In this document: positions 6,039-54,630 of the stretch, in pieces | Layout of the letters: each line of letters opens with the position of its first letter | Position numbering within the stretch: the first letter of the stretch is position 1 | NCBI RefSeq assembly: GCF_014334135.1 | Contig: NZ_CP060497.1 | Coordinates: 1,302,001 to 1,366,000 of the forward strand | Reading direction: 5' to 3' | From: Olivibacter sp. SDN3 | GTDB taxonomy: Bacteria; Bacteroidota; Bacteroidia; Sphingobacteriales; Sphingobacteriaceae | DNA length: 64,000 nucleotides | The notes under the pieces: generated by a model | Database searches by the model: none | What the model was told of the DNA's origin: nothing | The model's input: only the letters and a program-made list of their open reading frames with translations | Position numbers and translations under genes: made by a program

Positions 6039-6830
6039 ATGGGCGATTTTGATTTTAGCTTTTTCAATGTTAGGTTGTTAGATTTTATAGACATCTTTTT
6101 GGTGGCTATTATCATCTATTATATATATAACCTCATTCGTGGTACGATCGCTGTAAACATCCTCATCGGGTTATTTATTATTTATTTAGCCTACCTCGTA
6201 GTTAAGCAGTCGCAAATGCGCTTGCTAACAGAAATTTTTGGTGGTTTTATTAGCGTAGGGTCCATCGCGTTAATCGTCGTGTTCCAACAAGAGATCAGGC
6301 GCTTTCTCATTCATATAGGTAAGAATATATCCTTCCGAAGGAACAGAAGGCTTTGGACACTATTCTTAGGAAAAAGAGAAGTTGAAAAAGATAACACCTC
6401 CCGTCTGAAACCCATCATCGATGCCTGCCGAAGTATGTCTAAATCACATACCGGGGCCCTTATCGTTTTTTCCAAATTCTTTGATGAAGAATACTATCAA
6501 AATAGTGGAGAATTCATTGATGCAGAAATATCCAAACGTTTACTGGAAAGCATTTTTCAAAAACACAGTCCCTTACACGATGGGGCCCTGGTTATTGTAG
6601 ACTTCCGTATAAAAACTGCGAGCTGCATCCTTCCCCTATCAGATAGTGAAGACCTCCCCCTACATTTTGGTTTACGCCACCGAGCTGGCATAGGTGTTAC
6701 GGAAATGAGTGATGCCGTAGCAGTTATCGTTTCTGAAGAAACCGGAGAAATTTCTTATGCCAAGCAGGGTAATGTAAATATGAACATCACCCACGAGGAG
6801 TTGGAGCACTTATTAAATGAGGATGTCTAA
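6039..6830 (+). CDS. cdaA: diadenylate cyclase CdaA (DisA_N domain)
   Basis: A 263-residue membrane-bound diadenylate cyclase that makes c-di-AMP from two ATP. Three hydrophobic segments occupy about residues 15-85, then comes the DisA_N catalytic domain with the DGA motif at 181-183 (context SPLHDGALV) and the RHR motif at 213-215 (context GLRHRAGIG). These are the catalytic signatures of the family. c-di-AMP controls osmolyte transport and envelope homeostasis in many bacteria. No folP or CdaR-like partner gene is next to it; the downstream neighbours are a two-component pair. Confidence 0.95.
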   Translation: MGDFDFSFFNVRLLDFIDIFLVAIIIYYIYNLIRGTIAVNILIGLFIIYLAYLVVKQSQMRLLTEIFGGFISVGSIALIVVFQQEIRRFLIHIGKNISFRRNRRLWTLFLGKREVEKDNTSRLKPIIDACRSMSKSHTGALIVFSKFFDEEYYQNSGEFIDAEISKRLLESIFQKHSPLHDGALVIVDFRIKTASCILPLSDSEDLPLHFGLRHRAGIGVTEMSDAVAVIVSEETGEISYAKQGNVNMNITHEELEHLLNEDV

Positions 6831-6963
6831 ATATCCGCCTATTACTACCATTCGGCCATTATATCTTCCCTTTCATCTGAAATAGCTTTATCTTGTAAGT
6901 AAATGATCTCATTTTCGCAAGCAGAAGATAGAAACAAATTGTGTAACTTCAACTTTATACATC

Positions 6964-8019
6964 ATGGCTAATCTGACACTAACATCCAATCGGTGGCTAA
7001 AACTGAACGTATTACTTTTTTTTACGGGTCTTTTTCTTGCTTGCATTATATTCATCGTGCGATCCATTATAATTAGCGAATGGCAGCTAAGGAGTTTATT
7101 CATAGGAGCTGTGTTTAGTAGTGCTATCTGCTTGTCTATAACCAATAGTTATCTTATCGGGGAGCGGTATATGCTCGATTGGCAAAATAGACCCTGGCTT
7201 TCTTTTGCTTTATATTTTCTGCTATGCAGTATGGGTATGATTGTTGGTTTGGAATTAGCACATCTTCTGTTATATCTACTCTATGATTTTCCCATCGGTT
7301 TTCCTCATTGGAATGAATACCTATATAATACTATCATTGTGCTTGTACTGTGTTGCCTGATCTACCTATACCATTATAGGAAAGCCCAAGAAAAGGCCAT
7401 GCTTCAAGAAAAAGAGCTTGATCTCTTAAAGCTAAAGCAGCTGAAGACTCAGGTAGAATTGGATGCCTTGCAAGCCAAAATAAATCCTCATTTTCTATAC
7501 AATGCACTCAACTCCATTGCGACATTGATTAAGGAAGATCCCGATCAGGCTGAAACCATGACCATTAAGCTTTCTAAGTTATTTCGTTATAGCATCAACA
7601 GCAACCAAGAAAACCTAATTCCCTTACGTGAGGAGCTGGATATCGTTGACAATTATCTACAGATCGAAAAAATTCGTTTTGGTAATCGTATTAAGTTTAC
7701 ATTTGAAGTACAAGACGCTGTACTGCATTATAAGGTTCCACGTTTTCTACTCCAACCAATGGTAGAAAATGCCATCAAACATGGGTTGAAAGATTGCGTA
7801 ACCGGAGGTTTGTTAACGTTGAAAATTTTGGAACATCAGAAAGGCTTAAAAATAGCACTGGAAGACAATGGCATACCTTTTCCAGAGGAACTCCATATAG
7901 GATATGGCTTGCAGAGCACCTATGATAAGTTAACGCTCTTGTATGGAGATGAAGCATCCATACAGCTGGTTAATCATCCTACCAAAGAAATATGCATACT
8001 AATTCCGATAAAGCAATGA
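6964..8019 (+). CDS. LytS/YpdA-type sensor histidine kinase
   Basis: A 351-residue kinase with four hydrophobic segments in the first 135 residues and no obvious extracellular domain, a short coiled coil (about 140-170), then a His_kinase domain with INPHFLYNAL (His176 is the predicted phosphorylation site), and an ATPase domain with the N-box MVENAIKHG at 266-274. Its stop overlaps the start of the response regulator gene by ATGA (8016-8019), indicating translational coupling. The stimulus is not evident. Confidence 0.93.
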   Translation: MANLTLTSNRWLKLNVLLFFTGLFLACIIFIVRSIIISEWQLRSLFIGAVFSSAICLSITNSYLIGERYMLDWQNRPWLSFALYFLLCSMGMIVGLELAHLLLYLLYDFPIGFPHWNEYLYNTIIVLVLCCLIYLYHYRKAQEKAMLQEKELDLLKLKQLKTQVELDALQAKINPHFLYNALNSIATLIKEDPDQAETMTIKLSKLFRYSINSNQENLIPLREELDIVDNYLQIEKIRFGNRIKFTFEVQDAVLHYKVPRFLLQPMVENAIKHGLKDCVTGGLLTLKILEHQKGLKIALEDNGIPFPEELHIGYGLQSTYDKLTLLYGDEASIQLVNHPTKEICILIPIKQ

Positions 8020-8765
8020 TAAAAACCATCATAATTGACGACGAGCCTTTGGCCCGGAAGCGTTTACGGACTTTATTAGAAGATTTCAGCGATAAAATTG
8101 CGCTCATAGCAGAGGCCTCTAATGGCAAAGATGCGTTAGCACTGATGGAACGTTTACACCCCGATCTTATCTTTTTAGATATTGAAATGCCTGCTATGAA
8201 CGGCTTTGAAATGCTTCGGCAATTGAAAACGAAGCCTGCGGTTGTTTTTATCACGGCTTATGATCAGTTTGCCATAAAGGCTTTTGAAGAAAATGCGTTA
8301 GACTATCTCATGAAGCCGGTCGAAAAAGACCGCTTATGTAAAACCATCGTTCGTGTAGAGCAAGACCTGCATGCGTCATTTGATATTATCCAACGTTTTC
8401 TCGAAGGGGCATTAATAAAACCTAAGAAAGAAATCAGCAGCATCAGTATTAAAGTTGGCGATCGGATAATCTTTATAAAAACCGCAGATATTGTTTTTAT
8501 AGTAGCCGAAGAAAAATATGTTTTCTTATACGACACAAAAGGGAATAAACACTTGACTGACTATACCCTTCAACGGCTGGAAGAAAAGCTTCCTAATGAT
8601 TTTTTGAGGATCCATAGAGGCAGTATCATTAACCGTCACTACATTAAAGAAATAAGAAAAGGTTTTAACGGCTCTTTTACCTTCGTCATGGCAAACCCTG
8701 AAGCAAGCCGACTCAAATCCAGCCGAGGGTATCAAGAAGCCATCCGCATGCAACTGGATCTATAA
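8016..8765 (+). CDS. LytTR family response regulator
   Basis: A 249-residue regulator with a receiver domain (acidic pair Asp8-Asp9, phospho-acceptor Asp55 in FLDIEMP, Thr80 and Lys100) and a C-terminal LytTR DNA-binding domain (about 145-245). The open frame extends back to 7992, but the start at 8016 overlaps the kinase stop as ATGA and gives the standard MIKTIIIDDEP N-terminus. Works with the kinase immediately upstream. Targets unknown. Confidence 0.93.
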   Translation: MIKTIIIDDEPLARKRLRTLLEDFSDKIALIAEASNGKDALALMERLHPDLIFLDIEMPAMNGFEMLRQLKTKPAVVFITAYDQFAIKAFEENALDYLMKPVEKDRLCKTIVRVEQDLHASFDIIQRFLEGALIKPKKEISSISIKVGDRIIFIKTADIVFIVAEEKYVFLYDTKGNKHLTDYTLQRLEEKLPNDFLRIHRGSIINRHYIKEIRKGFNGSFTFVMANPEASRLKSSRGYQEAIRMQLDL

Positions 8766-8855: not shown

Positions 8856-9266
8856 CTAGCAATATTCGTCAAAAGCAGCAATGAGGTTATCGGCAATCAT
8901 CTGCGCCGGTCTTCCTTCAATATTGTGCCTTTCGATCATATGCACTAATTTTCCATCTTTAAACAAAGCCATGGCCGGAGAAGAAGGAGGGTACGGCAAC
9001 ATGTAGCCACGTGCTTTATCTACTGCGTCTTTCTCCATACCCGCAAATACCGTTACTATTTTCGACGGGTGTTTTTCGTTTTGAACAGCTACACGGGCAG
9101 CAGGACGTGCATTTGCCGCCGCGCAACCACATACCGAGTTAACCACCACAAATACGGTTCCTTCAGAATTGATGGCCGTATCCACCTCTTCCGGTGTTTT
9201 CAGTTCTTCAAAACCTACCGCAGTCAATTCCTTACGCATAGGTTCTACTAAATATTCTGGATACAT
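8856..9266 (-). CDS. BrxA/BrxB-family bacilliredoxin (YphP/YqiW)
   Basis: A 136-residue thioredoxin-fold protein of the DUF1094 family with the characteristic CGC motif at residues 46-48 (context NSVCGCAAANARPA). In bacilli these proteins remove bacillithiol from oxidised proteins; many Bacteroidota make bacillithiol or carry the homologue. Monocistronic, with its own promoter and terminator. Confidence 0.9.
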   Translation of the reverse strand: MYPEYLVEPMRKELTAVGFEELKTPEEVDTAINSEGTVFVVVNSVCGCAAANARPAARVAVQNEKHPSKIVTVFAGMEKDAVDKARGYMLPYPPSSPAMALFKDGKLVHMIERHNIEGRPAQMIADNLIAAFDEYC

Positions 9267-9414: not shown

Positions 9415-11121
9415 CTATTCTTTTAACTGTTTCTCCTTTTGCATACGTTCTGCCTTATGTTGAAGAATTTCCGCCTTTTTGGTTAACTCTTCTGCCTTTT
9501 GTTGTAAAGCTTCCTGCTTGGCTTTAAATTCCGGACTTTCAAATTTTTGCTGAAGGGCCTCCGCATTTTGCGCAAGCTCTTCTGCTTTACGTTCCAGCGC
9601 TTCACGCTTGGCCTTCATCTCATCGGAATTGACCTTTTCTACCAGCTGTTTAGACATGTTTTCCAGCTTTTTAGTTCGCTCCTCCATTTCCTTTTCTTTT
9701 AACTTCCACTCCGGGGAATCAAAATAGGTTGTATCATAGTTCAAAGCAGACAAACCCATTTGCTGAGCATGTTCCTGTACCTCACGCATCGTTTCTTTCC
9801 ATTCCGGAGAGTCAAAAAGCTCGAAAGTGGTTTCTTTGACAATGGCTTGACTATGCTCTCCAACCTCCTTCATAAAGGTTTTCCATTCCGCCGAATTAAA
9901 TTGTTCGTGCATAACTGCTGCAACTTCTTCTCCTATGGCCTTCCCGTTGGCAGACAGTTCTGACTGCAGCTTCTTCCACTCAGGGGAAGTAAATAAGGTT
10001 TCAGCTTTGTTTGGATCACTTTTTTTTGCAACTGTATCTGGTGTTGGTGGTGCTACAGAAGGTGCCGGTGGTACAGGTGGGCGAGGTTCCTTTACTACTT
10101 TTAAAACAGTGTCTTTTACAGGGTCACTAACCGGCCCTGTCCACGCCAGGCCTATAATTCCTGCAAGCAGAAATGTCATCGCGGCAAGTTTATGCCGTAT
10201 ATGAAAATTATTATTCGTTTTCATCATGGTCATCCTTTTAATTCGTTCAAGTAAATATTCTTTTTTATTAAATGCTCCCAAGGCAAAAACAGGAAGTTTT
10301 CTGGAGCGTATGTTTTCCAATACCAGCAATGCCTGCGCATAAGTTAATGCATTTCCAGTTATTTGCAGTACCTGATCGTCACAGCTATGCTCTCGCTCCT
10401 TTTCAAGCAGACGTCCAAGCATCCATACAAAGGGATTGAAAAAGAGAACAGCTTCTATCAGGCATTTAACTAAATTTAGGATATAATCATTCCTACGGAT
10501 ATGGGAAATTTCATGAATCAGGATACTCTCCACTTGCTTTAAGTCCAAAGCTGTTACTGCTGCTAACGGAAAAAGTATCACGGGTTTAAAGTAACCGATT
10601 ACCGTAGGAATCTGTACTTTATCCGACAAGTAGAATCCTATATTTCGTTTGATTTGGAGTTTTTGGCATAAAATCGAAAATATATCCTGCCATGCTATAG
10701 AAACAGGATATCTCTCCCCATTTTTCAACCGCGAGATTCGCAAATATCCAATACATAGTGCAAACAACTGAAACATCACACCAACGATGTAAATACCGGC
10801 AGCATGAGGAAAGAAAGCTTCCAATCGCCAATGCTTTTTTTCGGTAAATACTGCTGAATAATCGTAATTAGATAGCATAATGGCTCCCTCTGCTTTACCT
10901 ATAGGCCTTTCATTGGGCAAGTACATCAAAAAAGTTCCTACAAACCCCACTAATAGCAAACATAACAAAGTAAACAATAAGTTTGCCTTTTCCTTGGATG
11001 ATAAATAGAATACCGATACCAACACATAGGCGATTCCGCAAAGTAAAGCGCCCTGCCATAAGGAATGGAGCAAGCTCCAACCCAATGCGTAAACAAGTGG
11101 TTCAAAATTCATAAAAATCAT
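9415..11121 (-). CDS. BlaR1/MecR1-like M56 metallopeptidase with SPEWK-repeat C-terminus
   Basis: A 568-residue membrane protein. Residues 1-130 hold three or more membrane segments, and the zinc-protease motif HEISH is at 203-207 within the M56 domain. Another membrane segment near 312-325 leads into an extracytoplasmic tail. In BlaR1 the tail is a penicillin-binding sensor; here it is a proline-rich linker followed by six tandem units (starting at about 378, 409, 437, 468, 498, 528) each opening with [N/D/E/T]-S-x-E-[W/M/F]-K and continuing as a charged helix. The first four units keep Trp or a close variant, the last two are A/E/K-rich coiled coil. The start overlaps the blaI stop (ATGA, 11118-11121). 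By analogy, signal-induced proteolysis would remove the BlaI-type repressor. The signal is unlikely to be a beta-lactam bound by a transpeptidase fold, since that domain is absent. Confidence 0.85.
   Translation of the reverse strand: MIFMNFEPLVYALGWSLLHSLWQGALLCGIAYVLVSVFYLSSKEKANLLFTLLCLLLVGFVGTFLMYLPNERPIGKAEGAIMLSNYDYSAVFTEKKHWRLEAFFPHAAGIYIVGVMFQLFALCIGYLRISRLKNGERYPVSIAWQDIFSILCQKLQIKRNIGFYLSDKVQIPTVIGYFKPVILFPLAAVTALDLKQVESILIHEISHIRRNDYILNLVKCLIEAVLFFNPFVWMLGRLLEKEREHSCDDQVLQITGNALTYAQALLVLENIRSRKLPVFALGAFNKKEYLLERIKRMTMMKTNNNFHIRHKLAAMTFLLAGIIGLAWTGPVSDPVKDTVLKVVKEPRPPVPPAPSVAPPTPDTVAKKSDPNKAETLFTSPEWKKLQSELSANGKAIGEEVAAVMHEQFNSAEWKTFMKEVGEHSQAIVKETTFELFDSPEWKETMREVQEHAQQMGLSALNYDTTYFDSPEWKLKEKEMEERTKKLENMSKQLVEKVNSDEMKAKREALERKAEELAQNAEALQQKFESPEFKAKQEALQQKAEELTKKAEILQHKAERMQKEKQLKE
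9418..9990 (-). repeat. six tandem ~30-residue SPEWK units inside the M56 gene
   Basis: Six in-frame units of 28-31 codons, with a longer final unit running into the C-terminus, each begin with a motif such as TSPEWK, NSAEWK, DSPEWK, DSPEWK, NSDEMK, ESPEFK. The DNA of the units differs, so this is an old protein repeat and not a recent DNA duplication. The predicted structure is a chain of amphipathic helices or a coiled coil. Confidence 0.75.
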
Positions 11122-11495
11122 TTTTTATTTTCCAATTCGTTTAATAACTGTTTTATTTTTTCAATTTCTAGGTCACTTGCGCTGTGGTTCCCCAATGCCT
11201 GCATGACCAGGCGCGCTGCCGAACCTTCGAACAAATCATGGATCATTTTTCCCAACATTTGCTGCTCTGCCTTATCGCGACTAACCAACGCTCTGTAAAT
11301 GTGCGTTCTGTTAGTTTCATCACGTGTTAATAAACCCTTAGCGTGCATAATCTGCATTAGCTTCAAGGTTGTAGTATACCCCACATCCTTATTCGCTGAA
11401 AATAGATTGTGCACCTGCCGCACGGTACTATCACCTTGCTCCCATAATATTTTAAGGATCTCTAATTCACTCTCTGTTGGTTTTATTACTGCCAT
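11118..11495 (-). CDS. BlaI/MecI/CopY family transcriptional repressor
   Basis: A 125-residue winged-helix repressor with the typical start PTESELEILKILWE and the recognition-helix region VGYTTTLKLMQIMHAKGLL. It is translationally coupled to the M56 protein, its presumed anti-repressor. A palindromic operator pair lies in the promoter about 90-130 bases upstream, so the operon is very probably autoregulated. No beta-lactamase gene is in the window, so the regulon beyond this operon is unknown. Confidence 0.93.
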   Translation of the reverse strand: MAVIKPTESELEILKILWEQGDSTVRQVHNLFSANKDVGYTTTLKLMQIMHAKGLLTRDETNRTHIYRALVSRDKAEQQMLGKMIHDLFEGSAARLVMQALGNHSASDLEIEKIKQLLNELENKK

Positions 11496-11583: not shown

Positions 11584-11603
11584 AATACGAAGCTCTTCGT
11601 ATT
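11584..11603. promoter_or_regulatory. BlaI-type operator O2 (downstream of -7 box)
   Basis: AATACGAAGCTCTTCGTATT is a 9+2+9 bp perfect inverted repeat. It begins directly after the predicted -7 box of the minus-strand blaI promoter and covers the expected transcription start near 11600. The half-site TACGAA is shared with O1, and the two dyad centres are 24 bp apart. Confidence 0.8.
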
Positions 11604-11633
11604 CAAATATACGAAAGCTTTCGTACTATCAAA
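11604..11633 (-). promoter_or_regulatory. predicted blaI promoter
   Basis: On the minus strand TTTG (11630-11633), an 18-nt spacer and TATATTTG (11604-11611) match the Bacteroidota promoter pattern. Operator O1 fills the spacer and O2 follows the -7 box, so bound repressor would exclude RNA polymerase. The predicted leader is about 105 nt. Confidence 0.75.
11610..11625. promoter_or_regulatory. BlaI-type operator O1 (between -33 and -7 boxes)
   Basis: TACGAAAGCTTTCGTA is a perfect 16-bp palindrome inside the spacer of the blaI promoter, sharing two bases with the -7 box. Family repressors bind similar dyads as dimers, though the classic staphylococcal half-site is TACA/TGTA, not TACGAA. Confidence 0.8.
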
Positions 11634-11703
11634 ATAAATTTAACATTTTTTCATTACTGCCATTAAATTACCTCTTGTAAACACATTCCTCCCAAATAGT
11701 TAG

Positions 11704-13163: not shown

Positions 13164-13490
13164 TTAGTTCTTTCCCTTTAAAATATCATATACATTACCT
13201 AAATAAGCAGCCTCCGTAAGCGCTTCTTTAAATTCTTCCCACTCATCTTCTTCAAAAGCTAAGCTCAACTCTTTTGCAGAAGAATGGATAATTATTCGGT
13301 CTTCTCCATCCGGAAAAATAACTGAACGTTCGCTAAACACATAACGCTTAATATAAGAAAGAAAGAGATGATATTCTTTATCGAGAAAACTGAGTAGCAT
13401 ATTGTTATGCCAAATAAAAAACATTCCACAATCACTGCATTGACTAACGGTTGTCCGTGTATGTTGACAAAGAACCCGGGTATTACACAT
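13164..13490 (-). CDS. small zinc-ribbon-like hypothetical protein
   Basis: A 108-residue protein I cannot assign firmly; it resembles the DUF6686-type proteins of Bacteroidota. From the chosen start it has C2, C8, H10, C18 and C21, the last two as CSDCG, suggesting a small metal-binding ribbon. The C-terminal half is acidic (AFEEDEWEEFKEAL). The frame is open to 13571, but that extension would translate through a perfect hairpin and lacks family-like features, so I start at the ATG at 13490, which has GAGG 6-10 bases upstream. It has its own promoter and a long structured leader. Confidence 0.65.
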   Translation of the reverse strand: MCNTRVLCQHTRTTVSQCSDCGMFFIWHNNMLLSFLDKEYHLFLSYIKRYVFSERSVIFPDGEDRIIIHSSAKELSLAFEEDEWEEFKEALTEAAYLGNVYDILKGKN

Positions 13491-13520
13491 GCTATCCTCT
13501 TTTTTCCAGATTGCGCCTGA

Positions 13521-13554
13521 TTTACCCACGCACCGTCTATATAGCGTGGGTAAA
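13521..13554 (-). promoter_or_regulatory. perfect 11-bp leader hairpin
   Basis: TTTACCCACGC (13521-13531) and GCGTGGGTAAA (13544-13554) pair perfectly around a 12-nt loop. It sits within the minus-strand leader of the small zinc-ribbon-like gene, about 30 bases ahead of its start codon. No T-tract follows on either strand, so it is not an intrinsic terminator. It may be an RNA control element or a protein-binding palindrome. Confidence 0.6.
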
Positions 13555-13602
13555 CAGGACTTTAAAAACAAACCATTCTAAAATTAGTCACTCTAGATGA
13601 CG

Positions 13603-53400: not shown

Positions 53401-54630
53401 ATGAAAGAAGACACCTTATTGCCAGATCTATTCAGAAAAGAGTACCAAAAACTCGTTTCAGTGCTTTGTTATCTTTTTGGTATACAACATATTGAAATAG
53501 CGCAAGATATTGTTAGCGACACTTTCCTTACGGCCACAGAAGATTGGAGTTTGAAAGGCACTCCTCAAAATCCTACCGCATGGCTTTATACTGTCGCAAA
53601 AAATAAGACAAAAAATTACCTAAAAAGGAATGCCCTTTTTGAGCAGAAGCTTTCACCAGAGATCAAACATCTCGCACCGCGAACAGAAGAAATTGAAGTT
53701 GACCTTTCCACTAAAAGCATTGCCGACAGTCAGCTTGCCATGATTTTTACCGTATGCAATCCTAACATCTCCCATGAATCTCAAATCGCTTTGGCGCTAC
53801 ATCTGCTATGTGGTTTTGGTGTACAAGAAATTGCAGATGCCTTTTTAAGCAACAGAGAAGTTATCTACAAGCGCATCAATCGGGCGAAAGAAAAGCTAAA
53901 AGAAGAAAATATAAAGATAGCGCAGCCCAGTCTATCACAGATTACCAGTCGGCTCGATACTGTTTTAACCACGCTGTATTTACTTTTCTCGGAAGGCTAT
54001 TATTCCTCTTCGCAAGATACTACCATGCGCAAAGATCTTTGCGCAGAAGCAATGCGTATGACCCATCTGCTCATTGAAAATCAGACGACCAATAAGCCCT
54101 CCGTTAACGCCCTATTAGCTTTAATGTGCTTTCATGTCTCCCGGTTTGACGCCCGAGTCAATGATTTTGGAGAAATGATTTTATATCAAGATCAGGATGA
54201 AGCGCAGTGGAACCAGGAACTGATTGAGCAGGGAAAACGCTATCTCAACCTGGCCTCTCACGGTAAAGAACTAACAAAATACCACTTGGAAGCAGGCATA
54301 GCTTATTGGCATACGCACAAGGAAGATTCAAAAGAGAAATGGGAAAATATCCTGCAACTGTATAATCATTTGGTACTTGAAGCGTACTCACCCGTTGCAG
54401 CAATGAATAGGGTTTTTGCGCTGGCAAAAGCAAGGGGAAACAGCCATGCCATCAGCGAGGCAGAAAAGCTGAACATGGACGACAATCATTTTTATTTTGT
54501 GCTACTAGGCAATCTATATACCAATATTGATAATAAAAAAGCCTATACACATTTACAGACAGCATTGTCTTTGGCCCGCTCCGCCAGTGATAAAGCAATT
54601 ATACAAAAAAGCATGGAAGCGCTTAGATAA
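53401..54630 (+). CDS. ECF sigma factor with C-terminal TPR-like extension (ECF42-like)
   Basis: A 409-residue protein, more than twice the length of a normal ECF sigma. Region 2 (about 5-75; AQDIVSDTFLTATEDW) and region 4 (about 120-165; GFGVQEIADAFLSNREVIYKRINRAKEKL) are followed by about 230 residues of DUF6596/TPR-like helices (LFSEGYYSS is a hallmark). This architecture is that of the ECF42 group, which uses the extension instead of an anti-sigma factor. It ends 16 bases from a convergent DGPF gene, the protein family normally linked to ECF42. Confidence 0.92.
   Translation: MKEDTLLPDLFRKEYQKLVSVLCYLFGIQHIEIAQDIVSDTFLTATEDWSLKGTPQNPTAWLYTVAKNKTKNYLKRNALFEQKLSPEIKHLAPRTEEIEVDLSTKSIADSQLAMIFTVCNPNISHESQIALALHLLCGFGVQEIADAFLSNREVIYKRINRAKEKLKEENIKIAQPSLSQITSRLDTVLTTLYLLFSEGYYSSSQDTTMRKDLCAEAMRMTHLLIENQTTNKPSVNALLALMCFHVSRFDARVNDFGEMILYQDQDEAQWNQELIEQGKRYLNLASHGKELTKYHLEAGIAYWHTHKEDSKEKWENILQLYNHLVLEAYSPVAAMNRVFALAKARGNSHAISEAEKLNMDDNHFYFVLLGNLYTNIDNKKAYTHLQTALSLARSASDKAIIQKSMEALR

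Follow-up and report, generated by a model that had tools for sequence, protein, structure and literature searches.

The closest described systems to the locus studied here are the staphylococcal BlaR1/MecR1-BlaI/MecI pairs, with which it shares an M56 gluzincin that has a four-helix membrane core and the HExxH and ExxxD motifs, a repressor partner of the BlaI/MecI family, and the expected arrangement of a cytosolic protease and an extracytoplasmic C-terminal domain (PMC9834060, PMC7593790). The zinc site of BlaR1 is made up of H201ExxH and E242xxxD (PMC9834060). Unlike the staphylococcal systems, this locus has no penicillin-binding sensor; a helix-repeat tail is found instead, and the operon contains no resistance gene. 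Membrane proteases of the BlaR1 kind turn on genes for antibiotic resistance. M56-BlaI pairs are widespread outside staphylococci, and to our knowledge the signals that they read are mostly unknown. Our literature search, which covered part of the literature, found no published description of a helix-repeat M56-BlaI system. What is new here is a known BlaR1-type switch with a conserved, non-penicillin helix-repeat ectodomain that is shared across a single family.

The window, a 64,000-nucleotide stretch of DNA from Olivibacter sp. SDN3, encodes on its minus strand a 568-aa M56 (BlaR1-type) membrane metalloprotease with a helix-repeat tail (9415 to 11121), as identified by Pfam, alignment to BlaR1 and fold matching. 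All coordinates of the operon given below are on the same strand. Residues 1 to 331 (10129 to 11121) form the M56 core, for which hydropathy predicts four transmembrane (TM) segments, with TM4 at about residues 312 to 331. In the AF2 model, the pLDDT of the core is mostly 84 to 96 and is low in the loops. The Pfam family Peptidase_M56 (PF05569) spans residues 110 to 295 (E = 2e-31; 109.7 bits against a cut-off of 31). The HExxH zinc motif reads HEISH (residues 203 to 207; 10501 to 10515) and corresponds to BlaR1 H201-H205, and the ExxxD motif (E244-D248; 10378 to 10392) corresponds to E242-D246. Both align with the zinc motifs of the BlaR1 structure 8exp, and their key residues are invariant among 22 homologues. 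In a Foldseek search of the PDB with the model of the window protein, the best matches were S. aureus BlaR1 structures (8exs, 8exq, 8ext and 8exp; E = 5e-8 to 4e-7). The original prediction of a genuine M56 protease is borne out by the Pfam match, the invariant motifs and the BlaR1 alignment, which leave the zinc site intact.

The NCBI BlaR1 model NF000326 aligns only at its positions 106 to 317 of 585 (92 bits; cut-off, 400). Because the alignment covers only the first part of the model, the penicillin-binding half of BlaR1 is missing. The tail gave no significant match to penicillin-binding, class D β-lactamase or other families in Pfam and the NCBI collection, and a motif scan found neither SxxK nor K[ST]G in it, as the prediction of a lost penicillin-binding sensor had anticipated. 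At the sequence level, the ORF is thus confirmed as an intact BlaR1-type (M56) zinc protease in which repeats replace the penicillin-binding domain.

The partner gene (11118 to 11495) overlaps the M56 gene by 4 nt and encodes a 125-aa BlaI-type repressor, which we aligned to BlaI (1sd4) and MecI (1okr). It matches the winged-helix repressor profile Penicillinase_R (PF03965; E = 9e-28; 97.4 bits against a cut-off of 22.6). In S. aureus BlaI, cleavage occurs at Asn101-Phe102 (PMC9834060), a bond that marks the staphylococcal branch and not all of PF03965. The S. aureus sequence LVLNFAKN aligns to LVMQALGN in the window, where Gln-Ala replaces Asn-Phe, and LVMQAL or a near variant is present in nearly all relatives read. 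Therefore, the partner was rightly called a typical BlaI in profile and position, but not in its cleavage site, and cleavage by the M56 protease is uncertain because the scissile bond is not conserved. The autocleavage loop of BlaR1 (Ser283-Phe284, with a bulky P1') aligns by HMMER to PVFALGAFNKKEYLL in the window protein, which has the equivalent Phe. Most relatives carry ALAATGK-like loops without a Phe at this position, and the loops of the family often contain A-[LM]-[AGS]-A. One hypothesis suggested by these sequences is a common cut before Leu or Met in BlaI and in the M56 loop; with Ala-Leu-[Gly/Ala] as the common motif, BlaI would be cut ahead of the Leu in QAL.

Past TM4, a Pro/Ala-rich linker (residues 332 to 376; 9994 to 10128; pLDDT 31 to 49) is predicted to be disordered. 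It leads into six S-x-E-[W/M/F]-K repeats (residues 377 to 568; 9418 to 9993), which were recognized by motif, profile and predicted helices. The motifs begin at residues 379, 410, 438, 469, 499 and 529, with spacings of 31, 28, 31, 30 and 30. The predicted start near residue 378 needs only a small correction, to 377 to 379. In 20,000 rounds of shuffling, the tail never gave more than two S-x-E-[WFM]-K motifs against the six observed. A profile derived from repeats outside the window gave the tail 79.7 bits; none of 2,000 shuffles exceeded 7.9 bits. The six-repeat tail of the original prediction is confirmed by these three results. Repeats 5 and 6 share 61% amino acid identity, which makes them, by sequence, a more recent pair than the rest. 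The other repeats share just 14 to 39%, and most are therefore old.

E, K, A and Q abound in the tail, and the full-length AlphaFold model starts a helix at each motif (H380, H411, H439, H470, H500 and H530). The pLDDT in this model is about 31 to 57 before residue 470 and 66 to 84 beyond it. A tail-only model, made from a shallow alignment of nine rows from the window and related loci, was similar, with one helix per repeat at low confidence (mean pLDDT 65; pTM 0.34). We suggest that the motif reads as a helix cap, with the S as N-cap, P at N1 and an acidic residue at N2. Basic residues precede TM4 and none directly follow it. The charge pattern fits a periplasmic tail, and the predicted chain of charged periplasmic helices therefore stands as to helices and charge, with the periplasmic placement being probable. 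A PDB fold search with the tail model returned assorted coiled-coil and BAR proteins and nothing below E = 0.6. No transpeptidase or known sensor fold was matched, and we rejected a known sensor fold in the tail, although this search has little power because the tail model is weak. Apolipoproteins carry Pro-punctuated amphipathic 22-mer helices. The tail resembles them, by analogy only, in its proline-punctuated amphipathic helices of about 22 to 23 residues; it differs in having no sequence match to them, in its capping S-P-E-W start and in its expected periplasmic location.

All four genus-mates examined have repeat tails, as do most of the genera sampled from the family (sphingobacteria), and the proteins that carry them are nearly always M56 proteins encoded behind blaI. 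The proposed check, that other M56 proteins next to blaI should carry these repeats, thus holds family-wide. We read 55 complete M56 proteins of the family, which were chosen via the conserved operator-bearing promoter. Their 264 distinct repeat units give a 23-residue consensus, F-N-S-P-E-W-K-x-[KQ]-[MI]-x-x-I-x-x-N-A-x-x-[ILM]-x-K-x, in which S is conserved at 93%, E at 88%, W at 87% and K at 88%. The units are amphipathic, with a helical hydrophobic moment of 0.32 versus 0.20 when shuffled. The number of repeats per protein ranges from 1 to 9, with a median of 7 and 6 in the window; the threshold was permissive, such that low counts are upper limits, and a 20-residue Pedobacter variant is undercounted. 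Repeats follow one another every 23 residues in most genera and every 20 in many Pedobacter (SPEAQAKWKK); one genus-mate has a spacing of 27, and the window and its closest relatives have 28 to 31.

The tail profile matches 20 of the 27 family genomes searched, mostly in one ORF of about 500 to 710 aa. In the window's own genome it matches solely the M56 gene, and we rejected a mobile repeat domain elsewhere in that genome. Across the class, 16 of 395 genomes were matched, and 14 of these belong to the same family. The other two matches were weak, one to a different M56 protein (G321) and one to a sulfatase-like protein (G558), and repeat tails are not convincingly present outside the family in the class. 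Other Bacteroidota M56 proteins (such as L008 to L012, L015, L019 and the paralogue L024) likewise combine an M56 core with a C-terminal tail, which in several contains charged helical stretches. However, a small "INGK...Y" domain closes these proteins, and S-P-E-W-K repeats are absent from them. L024 is part of a second blaI-M56 pair in the window's genome, with a short, different tail (L024:1082-2770; C1, about 3556100 to 3557800). The blaI of this pair is preceded, at a distance of 53 nt, by the near-match dyad TACGAAAAATTTCCTA. In genus g15, two M56 genes with intact active sites follow one blaI in three of four genomes (L166:2038-7385, plus strand; L167; L168). The L166 cluster has a third ORF, of 366 aa, with only a TM4-like segment and repeats. 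This arrangement may represent a heterodimer or a decaying duplicate.

Bacteroidota promoters have a TTTG element at -33 and TAnnTTTG at -7. Upstream of blaI, conservation identifies two predicted operator dyads of the form TACGAA-N4-TTCGTA, separated by 8 to 9 nt; this operator and the Gln-Ala site distinguish the repressor from staphylococcal BlaI. Dyad 1 (TACGAAAGCTTTCGTA; 11610 to 11625) lies between a probable -33 box, TTTTG (11630 to 11634), directly upstream of it, and a probable -7 box of the TAnnTTTG type (TATATTTG; 11604 to 11611) that overlaps it. Dyad 2 (TACGAAGAGCTTCGTA) is at 11586 to 11601. Of 60 operators, up to 51 have TTTG at 8 to 9 nt upstream of dyad 1, and 45 have a TAnnTTTG that overlaps the end of this dyad. 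The tandem dyad is present about once each in 123 of 301 family genomes, with no reversed control pattern among the genomes listed, and lies directly upstream of blaI-M56 in 30 of 30 loci read. We infer that BlaI binds these dyads. Because they overlap the -33 and -7 boxes, bound BlaI would block the core promoter.

Several other genes in the window may be mentioned. A BrxA/BrxB bacilliredoxin gene (8856 to 9266, minus strand) lies downstream of the M56 gene and also adjoins it in genus-mates L028 to L030. In Pedobacter, recN follows the M56 gene, not brx, and the placement of brx is probably neighborhood rather than operon. Convergent with brx are a gene for a CdaA-type diadenylate cyclase and then a His_kinase/LytTR two-component pair (6039 to 8765, plus strand). 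A 409-aa sigma-70 ECF-like protein (53401 to 54630, plus strand) matches sigma profiles in its N-terminal 170 residues, and its remaining residues, about 240, have no NCBIfam match. A 135-aa ORF with a TTG start (13164 to 13571, minus strand) has several Cys/His residues near its N terminus and no NCBIfam match.

We propose that the locus encodes a one-component proteolytic switch like that of BlaR1, in which the extracytoplasmic sensor is now a chain of capped helices engaged with the cell envelope, and we put the probability of this reading at about 50%. BlaI on the two dyads over the core promoter would keep blaI-M56 expression low. TM4 would hold the tail outside the inner membrane, and the Pro-rich linker would lead it into the periplasm, where it may extend as a chain of 23- to 31-residue helices, probably paired if the M56 protein dimerizes like BlaR1. 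This chain may engage, or be held by, an envelope component such as peptidoglycan, the outer membrane or a protein. A change in this engagement would pass as strain via TM4 to the cytosolic zinc site, and the activated protease would then cut BlaI and derepress the operon. The sensory role of the tail is plausible. Its range of one to nine repeats, with at most one in L091, L099, L102 and L119, argues against a ligand-specific sensor. Because the number varies and these four operator-bearing homologues nearly lack repeats, the switch itself does not require them, and the tail may instead be a tether, a spacer or an effector.

In the effector scenario, the tail is a membrane-anchored periplasmic tether or spacer whose abundance is the output, and BlaI and the protease serve as a homeostat. 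The distribution of operators fits this. Exact dyads are nearly confined to the blaI-M56 operon in 20 genomes. Neither exact nor one-mismatch dyads were enriched over the reversed control. In the window's genome and three genus-mates, dyads with at most one mismatch numbered 16 to 19, versus 21 to 51 for that control, and 46 of the 58 such sites outside the operon fall inside ORFs. In these four genomes, one intergenic site has the same neighbor in two genomes and none is shared by more than two. We therefore rejected a wider BlaI regulon. Because no other conserved target or output gene was found with the exact or one-mismatch pattern, the circuit seems to be closed on itself. The number of repeats can vary freely, and the 366-aa ORF of L166 consists of just a TM4-like segment and repeats. 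However, this free-standing tail was found in a single genome, where it could be a duplicate in decay, and BlaI could use weaker sites that the dyad pattern misses. We consider it doubtful that the tail is purely an effector. A combined version is more speculative still: an M56 receptor-tether with a variable number of helix repeats, both sensor and effector, would read some mechanical or spatial feature of the periplasm and regulate nothing but its own synthesis, as a closed-loop envelope switch common to the sphingobacterial family.

The tail could also be a passive spacer, and the signal would then be read by the membrane-spanning region, by a short loop or by a partner protein. L091, L099, L102 and L119 retain the operator, BlaI and the protease with at most one repeat, as a spacer would allow, and the tail has a nonsynonymous rate (dN) about 1.6 to 3.9 times as high as the M56 part. 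However, strong conservation of W, K and S-P-E from genus to genus speaks against this, and the tail is better conserved than the linker. Between the window protein and three close genus-mates, identity is 59 to 70% in the M56 part, 45 to 56% in the repeats and 33 to 44% in the linker. The dN/dS was 0.17 and 0.20 for the tail and 0.11 and 0.14 for the M56 part in the two pairs with measurable synonymous change in the tail, on which the estimate rests because synonymous sites were saturated in the other pairs. These values and the dN ratio indicate that the tail is constrained, though less than the protease, and the substitution pattern shows purifying selection on it. We regard a purely passive tail as unlikely.

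A β-lactam response kept as in BlaR1, via cell-wall damage or directly, would suit the M56 and BlaI architecture common to both systems. However, the tail has no penicillin-binding or class D β-lactamase match and no SxxK or K[ST]G motif, and the operon has no β-lactamase gene. Direct acylation is very unlikely for these reasons, whereas induction by an indirect route may occur, and we judge the response as a whole to be highly improbable. Finally, the E, K, A and Q richness of the tail might suggest that the repeats are low-complexity noise or stem from a frameshift or sequencing error, but we rejected this, because the repeats occur in open frames of many independent genomes, including the same arrangement within the genus, far outscore shuffled tails and are under purifying selection.

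In the switch that we propose, with the capped-helix chain as sensor, BlaI apparently has no targets beyond the operon. Such a restriction is uncommon among repressors and suggests the M56 protein itself as the output. The bacterial family that shares the repeat-tailed M56 proteins lives in soil and water. With a conserved non-penicillin ectodomain and a readable promoter, sensing by a BlaR1 relative can be tested in soil bacteria that grow in culture. A tail that gauges the envelope, if this is what it does, would give switches based on regulated proteolysis a new kind of input.
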